Shown in pieces: positions 21,927 to 25,474 of a DNA stretch of 60,374 nt; the stretch's first letter is position 1, and each line of letters starts with the position of its first letter. The notes beneath the pieces are model-generated. The model searched no databases, was not told where the DNA came from, and saw only the letters and a program-made list of their open reading frames with translations. The position numbers and the translations under genes are program-made. Origin of the DNA: Pseudomonadota bacterium. GTDB lineage: Bacteria; Pseudomonadota; Gammaproteobacteria; Steroidobacterales; SZUA-146. The stretch spans positions 1-60,374 of the forward strand of contig JBCCHD010000023.1 of assembly GCA_039028935.1 (NCBI GenBank). The letters run 5' to 3'.

Positions 21927-24632
21927 ATGACCAAGAAAACCAAACCCTTATTGATACTCGTCGATGGTTCGTCCTACCTGTACCGCGCGTTCCATGCGCT
22001 GCCGTCGCTCACCAACGCCAACGGCGATCCCACCGGCGCGGTGCTCGGCGTCACGAACATGCTTAACCGTCTGTTTCAGGATTACGATACGCCTCATATT
22101 GCGGTGGTATTCGACGCTAAGGGTCCGACCTTTCGTCATGAGCAATACGATCAATACAAGGCCAACCGCCCGCCGATGCCCGACGAACTGCGTCAACAAA
22201 TCGATTACATCCATGACATTGTGCGCGCACTGGGTCTGCCGCTTCTGCAAGTACCTGGGGTGGAGGCGGACGATGTCATCGGCACGCTAGCCGTGCAGGC
22301 CCGAGGCGCCGGTATGAAAGTGGTCGTGTCAACCGGCGACAAAGACCTCGCGCAGTTGGTCAATGAAGATGTGACACTCGAAGACACGATGAAAAACGCC
22401 GTCATGGACGGCGATGCCGTGCTCGACAAATTTGGCGTTCGTCCCGATCAGATCATTGACTATCTGGGTCTGGTGGGCGACACCTCTGACAACATTCCAG
22501 GTGTGCCAAAAGTGGGCCCCAAAACAGCCGCCAAGTGGCTCGCAGACTACGACAGCGCCGAGCGCCTGATCGAGCACCGCGACGCCATTAAAGGCAAGGT
22601 GGGTGAAAGCCTGCGCGACAACATTGATCAACTCAAACTGTCCTGCGAACTGGCCACGATAAAACTGGATGTCGATCTTGACGCCACGCCAGACAGCCTC
22701 AAAATAGGCCAACAGGACGTAGCCAAACTCATCGAGCTGTACCAGACACTCGATTTCAAAAGCCTGCTGCGCGGACTGCCCGAAGCAAGCGATATCCCGA
22801 TCGAAACAAACGTGGCGGCACCGGAAAAACACTACGAGACGGTACTCACGCAAGCGCGTTTTGATGCGTGGCTGTCCCAATTAAAATCGGCCAAAGTCTT
22901 TGCGTTCGACACAGAAACCACGAGCATCAATTACATGGACGCCCAGATCGTGGGCGTGTCGTTTAGCGTCGACGCGGGTATCGCGGCCTACGTTCCGGTG
23001 GCGCATCGCTATGCGGGCGCGCCAAAACAGCTCAGTTGCGACACTGTTCTCAACGCACTCAAACCATTACTCGAAGATCCGCACGTGGCCAAAATCGGAC
23101 ACCACCTGAAATACGACGCCCACGTGCTCAGGCACTATGACATCGAGCTGCGCGGCATCGACTACGACACCATGCTCGAGTCGTATGTACTCAACTCAAC
23201 CGCGACGCGCCACGACATGGACAGCGTGGCTAAACGCTACCTTGGCGTCGACACCATTCACTACGAAGACGTGGCGGGTAAAGGAGCAAAACAGCTCACC
23301 TTCGATGAGGTGCCACTCGAAGAAGCCGGTCCTTACGCGGCCGAGGATGCCGACATTACGTTGCGCCTGCATCAAGCGCTCTGGCCACAGCTTGAAGAAC
23401 AAAAAGCACTATCAAGCGTATACGCGGAAATTGAACGCCCCCTTGTGCCGATACTGCTGGATATGGAGCACAACGGCGTGCTGCTGGATATCGAGATGCT
23501 CAATGAGCTGAGCGTCGAGTTCGCCAGCATCATGCAGAAACTTGAAACCGAAGCATTCAACGCGGCGGGACAGGAGTTCAATCTGGGCTCACCCAAACAG
23601 CTGCAGGAAATTCTGTTTGAAAAACAGGGTCTGCCGGTCATTCGCAAAACCCCCAAGGGCCAGCCGTCAACGGCAGAAGACGTGCTCGTGGAACTCGCGC
23701 TCGATTACCCATTACCGCAGCTCATTCTCGACTATCGCAGCTTAAGTAAGCTCAAATCGACCTACACCGACAAACTGCCTCTGCAGGCCAACGCCGGTAC
23801 GCAACGCGTACACACCTCTTATCACCAGGCGGTCGCCGCCACGGGACGCCTGTCGTCGTCCGATCCCAATCTGCAGAATATTCCAATCCGCACACCGCAA
23901 GGTCGCCGTATCCGCCAGGCCTTTATTGCGCCCAAGGGCTATACCCTGCTTGCCGCCGACTACTCGCAAATTGAACTGCGCATCATGGCGCATCTCTCGG
24001 CGGACGAAGGCCTGACGCGAGCGTTTGCCGAAGATCGAGACGTGCACCGCGCCACCGCCGCTGAGGTGTTTGATATGCCGGTTGACGCGGTCACCAATGA
24101 CCAACGTCGTTCCGCCAAAGCCATCAATTTTGGCCTTATTTACGGCATGTCGGCGTTTGGCCTTGCCAAACAGCTCAACATTACGCGCCACGCCGCGCAG
24201 GAGTACGTCAACGTGTACTTTGAGCGGTATCCAGGTGTGCAAGACTACATGGATCGCACACGCGCACAGGCCAAGGAACAAGGCTACGTGGAAACCGTGT
24301 TTGGCCGTCGCCTGTATTTGCCGGACATCAACGCGCGTAATGGCCAGCGTCGACAGTATGCCGAGCGTAGCGCCATTAACGCACCGATGCAGGGCACGGC
24401 CGCCGATATCATCAAACGCGCAATGCTCGCGGTGCATGACTGGTTGGTGACGTCGGGCGCGGACGCTCGCTTACTCATGCAGGTGCATGACGAACTGGTG
24501 CTGGAAGTGGCCCACCGCGAGCTGGACGCCGTGCGTGAAGAGGTTGTGAAGCGCATGTGCGGCGCCGCTGAACTCAATGTGCCGCTAAAAGTGGATGCCG
24601 GCACGGGCATGAACTGGGACGAAGCACACTGA
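21927..24632 (+). CDS. polA: DNA polymerase I
   Basis: 901-residue three-domain polymerase I for Okazaki-fragment processing and repair. The 5' nuclease is at about 1-290 (ILVDGSSYLYRAFHA, GVEADDVIGTLA, STGDKDLAQLV, GDTSDNIPGVPKVGPKTA). The 3'-5' proofreading domain is at about 300-500 and looks active, with FDTETTSI providing the DxE pair and YAAEDADITL a later Asp. The polymerase domain has motif A LLAADYSQIELRI, the O-helix KAINFGLIYGMS and motif C MQVHDELVLEV. The downstream gene engB is on the opposite strand, as in E. coli, and the gap between them is structured (see the candidate sRNA). Confidence 0.98.
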   Translation: MTKKTKPLLILVDGSSYLYRAFHALPSLTNANGDPTGAVLGVTNMLNRLFQDYDTPHIAVVFDAKGPTFRHEQYDQYKANRPPMPDELRQQIDYIHDIVRALGLPLLQVPGVEADDVIGTLAVQARGAGMKVVVSTGDKDLAQLVNEDVTLEDTMKNAVMDGDAVLDKFGVRPDQIIDYLGLVGDTSDNIPGVPKVGPKTAAKWLADYDSAERLIEHRDAIKGKVGESLRDNIDQLKLSCELATIKLDVDLDATPDSLKIGQQDVAKLIELYQTLDFKSLLRGLPEASDIPIETNVAAPEKHYETVLTQARFDAWLSQLKSAKVFAFDTETTSINYMDAQIVGVSFSVDAGIAAYVPVAHRYAGAPKQLSCDTVLNALKPLLEDPHVAKIGHHLKYDAHVLRHYDIELRGIDYDTMLESYVLNSTATRHDMDSVAKRYLGVDTIHYEDVAGKGAKQLTFDEVPLEEAGPYAAEDADITLRLHQALWPQLEEQKALSSVYAEIERPLVPILLDMEHNGVLLDIEMLNELSVEFASIMQKLETEAFNAAGQEFNLGSPKQLQEILFEKQGLPVIRKTPKGQPSTAEDVLVELALDYPLPQLILDYRSLSKLKSTYTDKLPLQANAGTQRVHTSYHQAVAATGRLSSSDPNLQNIPIRTPQGRRIRQAFIAPKGYTLLAADYSQIELRIMAHLSADEGLTRAFAEDRDVHRATAAEVFDMPVDAVTNDQRRSAKAINFGLIYGMSAFGLAKQLNITRHAAQEYVNVYFERYPGVQDYMDRTRAQAKEQGYVETVFGRRLYLPDINARNGQRRQYAERSAINAPMQGTAADIIKRAMLAVHDWLVTSGADARLLMQVHDELVLEVAHRELDAVREEVVKRMCGAAELNVPLKVDAGTGMNWDEAH

Positions 24633-24678
24633 GTTCAGATACGGTTGGTATCACCGTAACCGACTGCCGTACACACCC

Positions 24679-24708
24679 AAAAACAGCATAAGTAATACGC
24701 TGTTTTTT
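24679..24708 (+). terminator. Terminator after polA
   Basis: AAAAACAGC (24679-24687) pairs with GCTGTTTTT after an 11-base loop, and six T follow the stem base. It sits about 45 bases behind the polA stop. Runs of A and T on both sides mean it could work on both strands. Confidence 0.7.
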
Positions 24709-24785
24709 CTCGGTATTCAGAGAAATACTCAGATTCTGGAACTAAACCCTGAACGCTTACTCAAAGTTATTAGGCGTGTGATGAC

Positions 24786-24890
24786 GCTAGTCCGCTGCCC
24801 TCCCTGTGCGGACGACTGCCCGGCCACCCCATGCCGGGCGCAGGTTAACCCCGGCGCCTCCCCTAATCGGCGCTGGGGTTTCTTCTTTCT
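24786..24890 (+). ncRNA. Candidate Spot 42/ErsA-position small RNA
   Basis: Three consecutive hairpins lie between the polA terminator and the engB 3' end. Stem 1 is GTCCGC/GCGGAC (24790-24813), stem 2 GCCCGGC/GCCGGGC (24818-24839), stem 3 a 12-pair stem (24847-24880) followed by TCTTCTTTCT. Each loop is C-rich: TGCCCTCCCTGT, CACCCCAT and TCCCCTAATC. C-rich loops resemble those with which some regulatory RNAs pair to ribosome binding sites. In E. coli Spot 42 (spf), and to my knowledge ErsA in Pseudomonas, lie in this polA-engB gap. Sequence homology to either is not claimed. The 5' end is uncertain, and only a weak -10 (TATTAG, 24768-24773) was seen. Confidence 0.45.
24847..24890 (+). terminator. 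Strong hairpin with U-rich tail at engB 3' end
   Basis: AACCCCGGCGCC pairs with GGCGCTGGGGTT through 12 pairs including one G-T wobble, with a 10-base loop and then TCTTCTTTCT. It reads as a plus-strand terminator, although it overlaps the last codons of engB on the minus strand. That fits termination of a plus-strand transcript starting after the first polA terminator. Confidence 0.6.
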
Positions 24891-25474
24891 GGCCATTGCA
24901 ACATGGCCGCCAAGACCTCACGAGCTTCATCAAGGCCTTGTTTTTTGAGTGCCGAGAAGAGCTGAATACCAACCCCATCGGCCAGCTGACGACGCGTCTG
25001 CTCAAAGCTTTTTGCGGCCGCACCGCGACTGAGTTTGTCGGCCTTGGTTAACAGAATGTGCACCGGACAACCGGCCGATCCAGCAAACTCTAGCATCTGC
25101 TCATCAAACGGCATAAGCGGGCGACGGGCGTCCATCATAACGATGAGCCCCGATAGACATTGCCGATGGGCAAAATAATCGCCCATCAGCGTGCGCCAAT
25201 GGCGCTGGATGGGCTTGGGTGCTTTGGCAAAGCCATATCCCGGCAAATCCACGAGACGCCGATTGTCTGGCAAGCGAAAAAAATTGATCAGCTGGGTGCG
25301 CCCGGGCGTTTTACTCGTGCGCGCCAAACCGCGACGCTGAGTGAGAACATTGATGGCGGTCGACTTGCCTGCATTCGAGCGGCCGGCAAACGCCACCTCT
25401 GCGCCCGAATCCGGAGGGAAACCCCCGATATCATTGGCACTTTTAAGAAATTCCGCTACTTGAAATCGAGACAT
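24863..25474 (-). CDS. engB: Ribosome biogenesis GTPase EngB (YihA/YsxC)
   Basis: 203-residue TRAFAC-class GTPase needed for 50S subunit assembly. G1 is [10 protein letters not shown]2 the [10 protein letters not shown] segment, G3 DLPGYG and G4 LTKADK. The whole chain matches the YihA layout, and the start ATG at 25474 gives the usual short N-terminus. The ORF extends upstream to 25540 without family similarity. It is divergent from the cytochrome c4 gene, leaving a 120-base shared control region. Confidence 0.96.

Follow-up and report, generated by a model that had tools for sequence, protein, structure and literature searches.

The gap between polA and engB in the window, i.e. the whole stretch of 60,374 nt analysed here, contains a predicted small RNA gene of about 117 nt. 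Its product is with a probability of roughly 0.8 an ErsA-like, trans-acting small RNA (sRNA) that would be transcribed with the help of a sigmaE-type factor (RpoE), might depend on Hfq and would block G-rich ribosome-binding sites of target mRNAs. This reading is built on a folded structure with covarying stems, a gene order shared with relatives, a conserved promoter-like motif, and the genes for RpoE and Hfq in the same genome.

The predicted sRNA gene and its neighbours

The features of the locus are compiled in Table 1. The polA terminator of the original prediction was read from the sequence at exactly its proposed position; a consensus terminator scan restricted to loops of 3-8 nt left it unlisted. 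The three proposed hairpins (SL1, SL2 and SL3) were likewise exact in positions and C-rich loops, and their stems were reproduced by free-energy folds. The U-rich tail expected behind the last hairpin is present as CTTCTTT directly 3' of the SL3 stem, and together with it the SL3 element spans 24847..24888. In addition, a 5' hairpin (SL0) and the upstream promoter-like motif were overlooked earlier. The spacing of the promoter-like motif, which lies 29 nt behind the polA terminator, and the position of SL0 place the start of the RNA at about 24772, and a length of about 117 nt is therefore likely instead of the 105 bases first proposed.

Table 1 Features of the polA–engB locus (positions in the window)
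Feature	Position	Strand	Basis
polA (DNA polymerase I), upstream neighbour	21927..24632	+	ORF; Pfam PF00476, PF02739, PF01612
polA intrinsic terminator	24679..24708	+	stem AAAAACAGC/GCTGTTTTT read directly, also in fold
sigmaE/AlgU-type promoter-like motif GGAACT-N17-TCAAA	24738..24765	+	pattern scan; conserved in relatives
Small RNA gene, ~117 nt (predicted)	24772..24888	+	predicted start 24771-24773; match of model R1
SL0, 5' hairpin GGCGT/ACGCT	24773-24777/24784-24788 (24773..24788)	+	fold
SL1, loop TGCCCTCCCTGT, main putative seed	24790-24795/24808-24813 (24790..24813)	+	read directly, fold
SL2, loop CACCCCAT	24818-24824/24833-24839 (24818..24839)	+	read directly, fold
SL3, Rho-independent terminator, C-rich loop TCCCCTAATC	24847-24858/24869-24880	+	read directly, terminator scan, fold
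engB/yihA GTPase, convergent neighbour	24863..25474	-	ORF; Pfam PF01926

The minimum free energy of the segment 24775-24890 is -54.4 kcal/mol (z -4.08; none of 200 shuffles was as good), and that of 24772-24888, which includes SL0, is -57.7 kcal/mol (z -3.69; 1 of 200 shuffles as good). R1, a covariance model of SL1-SL3 for which the window was aligned with seven relatives, scores 104.8 bits over 24789-24888, the window being one of its seeds. It has one match in the genome to which the window belongs, where the RNA is probably single copy.

The convergent gene, which we take to be engB from recognition of its sequence and from relatives such as L021, was given the ATG start (MSRFQVAEF) by choice and not the start of the longer TTG ORF. 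Its stop codon (24863-24865, minus strand) sits within the SL3 loop. The last codons of engB (24863-24889, minus strand) are encoded by the sRNA terminator stem, and the C-terminal end reads ...RRNPSAD in the window and, by eye, ...RRNPGAD in L003. The overlap of terminal hairpin and engB, considered unusual in the original prediction, is real and recurs in this 96%-identical congener (frame read by eye), but in the congener L008 engB ends before the sRNA terminator, so it is not a feature of the family.

Covariation of the stems and conservation of the loops

The structure was examined in the alignment A5, which comprises 67 matches from a search over 63 sources picked from the loci. Left out of it were duplicates, three loci with short forms lacking polA and engB (L088, L092, L095), and L093, L102, L104 and L109. 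Standard pairs occupy 94.3% of 1635 stem cells, and changes on both sides of a pair occur in 24 of 25 pairs (7/7 in SL1, 7/7 in SL2 and 10/11 in SL3, helices 3 and 4 taken together). Such two-sided changes fill 299 cells vs 74.8 in shuffles, none of 500 shuffles being as high, and after sliding by 1-3 columns only 33-53% of the cells still pair (about 53% for one column). A5 was fitted to the model structure, which favours covariation; nevertheless, the controls stay far below the observed values. The compensatory changes and the retention of the hairpins in relatives speak for a conserved, structured RNA; of the refuting outcomes named in the original prediction, none that could be checked was observed.

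The loops are conserved while the stems vary: of the 67 matches, 55 retain CCTCCCT in the region of SL1 and 66 retain CCCC in that of SL2. This is how anti-Shine-Dalgarno seeds would behave and agrees with the suggestion that the loops are aimed at Shine-Dalgarno regions.

Hairpins of at least 6 bp were also found in the upstream flank, the region of SL0, in 55 of the 67 matches as compared to 21.5% of shuffles. The longest helix in the flank of the window is another 7-bp pairing and not SL0, as also in L003 and several others, and SL0 of the window therefore rests on the fold of 24772-24888 and on the relatives. MAFFT alignments (A1, A2) misplaced SL0 and parts of SL2 and SL3 in distant rows; SL0 was therefore excluded from all models.

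Distribution and gene order in relatives

At the DNA level, 6 of 59 relatives' genomes (own genome included) gave a match: the own genome, two congeners with 96% and 90% identity, two genomes of another family with 86% identity over about 57 nt, and one that was dropped as chance (L007, E 8.6e-4, within a long ORF resembling gltB by eye). The covariance model reaches further, with R1 matches at E 0.001 in 153 of 369 genomes of the class (113 of 272 by genus). R1 was also run on 84 sources, 80 of which were fetched using the engB protein alone. At E <=0.01, 26 of these 80 engB loci match (23 without L008, L011 and L049, which are R1 seeds or their duplicates). Most of the matches (24/26) are convergent with engB at a distance of no more than about 540 nt from its stop codon; L060, on the other strand, and L027, about 1.5 kb from engB, deviate from this. 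Matches on the strand opposite to a true match (L011, L003) are mirror images.

The family is not universal: at E 0.01, R1 leaves 54 of the 80 engB loci unmatched. These include each of the 19 loci with Halomonas, Salinicola, Bisbaumannia, Halotalea, Billgrantia, Chromohalobacter or Aidingimonas in the title and each of the 7 loci of Methylophilus type. Seven engB flanks without an R1 match at E 1 (L020, L036, L052, L064, L071, L073, L081) carry an ECF-type motif on the RNA strand about 160-210 nt from the engB stop, and in L020, L036 and L073 C-rich-loop hairpins were also folded; possibly these are more divergent members. R2, a broader model built from A5, gave 38 matches at E <=0.1; all but one fall in the 80 engB loci, and 22 of these 37 lie outside the training set. 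The Rfam model of anti-hemB (RF02837), run at E 0.001, picks up 124 of 274 genomes of the class, 13 above its cut-off. At this E value it also responds, below its cut-off, in 3 of 14 control genomes, two of which do not belong to the class, so that a weak match taken singly has to be backed by a further criterion.

Gene order was counted for the 44 A5 matches with 700 nt on both sides. An upstream polA accompanies 29 of them and a downstream engB 33; 23 have both genes and 5 have neither. The count includes several copies per locus in L146 (four), L105 (two) and L140 (two), and some long distances, e.g. polA 1252 nt away in L113. A fresh set of 20 weaker R1 matches (E 5e-9 to 5e-5) was picked by hand at steps down the class-wide list from rows without an earlier locus, although one of them, L223, is probably the same place as L015. 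Here polA and/or engB were found in the correct orientation within 2.5 kb in 17 of the 20 (polA 13, engB 14, both 10, neither 3), which speaks for the proposed reading. In L005, L108 and L115 the RNA stands beside polA and engB was not found in the flank examined; in L005, where polA lies upstream, this flank was 1.4 kb.

The seven loci left out of A5 have nine R2 matches and set a limit to this reading. Three of the matches are flanked by polA or engB, the other six by neither; the flank of L102 is short. Five of the nine belong to L088, L092 and L095, with neither gene in the flank. These three loci contain the shorter forms that match Rfam anti-hemB away from polA and engB, one copy in L088 and two each in L092 and L095; in L092, a gene for an SmpB-domain protein lies roughly 1 kb away from the short form. 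Tandem copies are also present in L146:1081-1819 (four consecutive ones between polA and engB), L105:1283-1584 (two) and L140:1324-1604 (two).

A conserved promoter-like motif

The consensus GAACTT-N16/17-TCTNN of AlgU is that of the sigmaE class in general. In the window, 0.81 occurrences of GGAACT-N17-TCAAA are expected by chance and the motif alone is not significant; it matters because it is conserved in relatives and not by its single occurrence. Upstream regions of the family RNAs show GGAACTT-N16/17-TC, which corresponds to the published AlgU consensus (PMC7641640). At 40-58 nt before SL1 the motif occurs in 54 of 66 A5 matches (those of the 67 rows with enough upstream sequence), as compared to 0.9% of 20,000 random windows from the same loci. 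It had first been noticed on 19 loci which overlap this test set. For a second alignment, A4, with 42 rows, the best 30 were taken, and 25 of the 29 with enough upstream sequence carry the motif at this distance vs 0.8% of 20,000 random windows. In the fresh set the same holds for 16 of the 20 matches. Furthermore, in the engB flanks the motif is found on the RNA strand in 40 of 79 cases and on the opposite strand in 11 of 79.

Twelve of the 66 upstream regions lack the motif at this distance; by eye, it stands farther away in four of them (L101, L117, L138, L142) and is missing in the other eight. GAACTT-N17-TCAGA stands upstream of the Pseudomonas ErsA locus L021. A GAAACTT variant precedes the RNA in L027, L060, L092 and L095, in the latter two as an ECF-like GAAACTT...GGTC. 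The upstream regions of L094, L098 and L104 are without GGAACTT and show sigma70-like hexamers by eye; perhaps the promoter class has changed within the family in these cases.

The motif of the window resembles a sigmaE/AlgU-type promoter, and from its sequence we infer use by RpoE. The own genome encodes one RpoE above the TIGR02939 cut-off (315 bits) beside six weaker ECF-like matches, and an hfq gene is present.

Relation to known RNAs

At gathering thresholds no Rfam family matches within the 60 kb window; sub-threshold matches to SBWMV2_UPD-PKl, Scr3202 and rimP (E 4.9-7.9) were discarded as chance. Membership in a known family, for which Spot 42 and ErsA had been brought into play, did not hold at the Rfam cut-offs. 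The Spot 42 model (RF00021) has no match in the own genome, with a control match in E. coli, and ErsA (Pseudomon-1, RF01719) reaches 16.5 of 50 bits (E 0.61) on the window. The shared position was confirmed, since both Spot 42 of E. coli K-12 and a Pseudomonas ErsA (L021) lie between polA and engB. The model of anti-hemB (RF02837), also known as Burkholderia RNA 7, gives 34.1 bits against a cut-off of 49.5 (E 1.6e-6), with positions 1-81 of the model fully aligned. Gathering thresholds were also applied to 20 loci. The anti-hemB cut-off is exceeded there in L088 and L092 and, with polA and/or engB next to the RNA, in L089, L090, L097 and L098; L021 is ErsA with 111.8 bits. At the remaining sRNA loci of this set, L005, L011, L012, L017, L049, L110, L115, L122 and L146 among them, no Rfam family passed for this RNA.

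The ErsA gene is located in the polA–engB intergenic region (PMC8575079), and the RNA is 132 nt long (PMC5819304). Like the window RNA, it stands beside engB on the same strand and has an AlgU/sigmaE-type motif, C-rich loops and a terminator hairpin. In contrast, the window RNA forms four hairpins and carries CCUCCCU in the loop of the second; for ErsA, only SL1 and SL2 are labelled in the available text of PMC8575079. R1 reaches the Pseudomonas ErsA of L021 with E 0.018 only, and R2, for which L021 was not in the training set, finds it with 30.7 bits (E 3.1e-4, in 489 kb). The window RNA resembles ErsA in its location, its promoter motif and its loops. ErsA controls algC, amrZ and anr with Hfq, whose gene the own genome carries as well.

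The alignment with anti-hemB extends over the full length including the CCUCCCUG loop and the terminator, but SL2, the linkers and the SL3 loop are longer in the window, and SL0 is missing from the Rfam model. A further difference is that the shorter family matches in L088, L092 and L095, tandem in the latter two, have no polA or engB nearby. The name anti-hemB describes a position opposite or beside hemB, which is not a neighbour of the window RNA; its neighbours are polA and engB. For ncS04 of B. cenocepacia, listed as anti-hemB, a 105-nt transcript is reported (PMC5688073). Homology of the window RNA with ErsA as well as with anti-hemB is probable.

Among described RNAs, sX13 of Xanthomonas comes closest in structure, judged here from its description. 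It has 115 nt, lies downstream of polA, forms three stable stems with C-rich loops and represses, independently of Hfq, mRNAs with G-rich motifs near the start (PMC3771888). Three such stems downstream of polA are also present in the window; different are the fourth hairpin and the downstream gene, engB in place of a hypothetical protein, and sX13 is reported from Xanthomonadaceae only (PMC3771888). Spot 42 occupies the same polA–yihA(engB) gap and strand in E. coli K-12, and with filters off R2 gives E. coli spf 13.7 bits (E 0.011), which is weak, yet the best place in 4 kb. A Bordetella MicA-like RNA, S17 and SabS of Acinetobacter were not found, in the available parts of their sources, to bear on the polA–engB locus.

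Proposed mode of action and possible targets

Under envelope stress, RpoE, a factor of the sigmaE/AlgU class, would start transcription at about 24772, and the transcript would fold into SL0-SL3 and terminate at SL3. The C-rich loops, chiefly CCUCCCU in SL1, would then pair with G-rich Shine-Dalgarno regions and thereby reduce the translation of mRNAs with envelope or metabolic functions, perhaps assisted by Hfq. The RNA may work like the Pseudomonas ErsA; by analogy, it would be expected to respond to RpoE and to keep ribosomes from binding G-rich leaders.

CCUCCCU is complementary to AGGGAGG, a Shine-Dalgarno-like sequence. In the own genome CAGGGAGG precedes an ATG three times vs none for the reversed pattern. 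One of these matches lies before lptC (Pfam PF06835), in whose start region (L168, C27:9104-9117) CAGGGAGGG, located 3 nt upstream of the ATG, could pair with the SL1 loop over nine bases. lptC was found in 14 of 18 genomes searched, and none of the other 13 starts is preceded by CAGGGAGG by eye; the candidate site of lptC is not kept in relatives. AGGGAGG itself precedes an ATG 15 times in the own genome (7 for the reversed control) and 68 times in five genomes (27 reversed), an excess that Shine-Dalgarno bias alone could give. Five of the 15 sites precede frames of at least 80 codons, several of which look envelope-related by eye, and no homologues of these frames were found at the 30 loci checked of 53 matches in four relatives. 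The target searches are not discriminating, and no conclusion about targets is drawn from them.

Alternative explanations

Spot 42 regulates carbon metabolism from the same locus (PMC3771888), and the window RNA might be a polA-locus sRNA of the sX13 or Spot 42 kind with a metabolic role, a housekeeping promoter and a mere relic of an ECF-like motif. Several relatives without the motif (L056, L070, L094 and L098 among others) would suit this explanation, as would the sigma70-like hexamers seen by eye in L098. We consider it unlikely, because motif and spacing are kept in 54/66 and 16/20 upstream regions and a scan of 24400-25200 found no sigma70-type promoter, both of which argue against a housekeeping promoter.

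It is distinctly improbable that the hairpins are terminators or transcription debris of the convergent polA and engB, or an element acting in cis as antisense to the 3' end of engB, with no trans-acting RNA at all. The terminator does overlap the last engB codons in the window and in L003, but the overlap is absent in L008 and the RNA is kept beside polA in the three loci where engB was not found in the flank examined; debris is contradicted by the separate terminator of polA further upstream and by the strong covariation of SL1 and SL2 around kept loops. Hardly any weight falls on an RNA titrating CsrA/RsmA or on a small-protein gene in the manner of spfP, even though E. coli spf is annotated with the small protein SpfP: GGA occurs in none of the four hairpin loops of the window sequence, which disfavours titration, and by eye the frame opened by the ATG at 24781 runs through the RNA without a stop, and this ATG is missing in relatives such as L005. 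The ErsA-like, sigmaE-driven RNA is thus the reading kept here.

A probable wider family

Taken together, the matches form a large family; anti-hemB is the annotation of some members and ErsA that of one, and others come under no Rfam family. Gammaproteobacteria in the sense of GTDB include the Betaproteobacteria, and many lineages of this class look to have kept the RNA at the polA–engB locus. We lean, with some reserve, towards the view that ErsA, anti-hemB and the RNAs not covered by Rfam are one old RpoE-driven family with C-rich loops, an early envelope-stress sRNA of the class that was lost or replaced in places, Spot 42 and sX13 being rewired forms. The Halomonas-type loci would then be examples of loss or replacement.

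In the literature excerpts consulted, ErsA is presented as an RNA of Pseudomonas and anti-hemB as one of Burkholderia; the Rfam table gives no clan for either. In the open-licence literature no description of such a family was found among the matches listed, and no paper was found in which two or more of ErsA, anti-hemB, Pseudomon-1 RNA and sX13 occur together. A wider family that joins ErsA and anti-hemB with sigmaE-type promoters at polA–engB thus looks unrecognised so far. The boundaries of the RNA, its promoter motif and a conserved seed are now available for testing, and the apparent unity of ErsA and anti-hemB, with sigmaE-type promoters at the polA–engB locus, is the part that deserves the attention of specialists.
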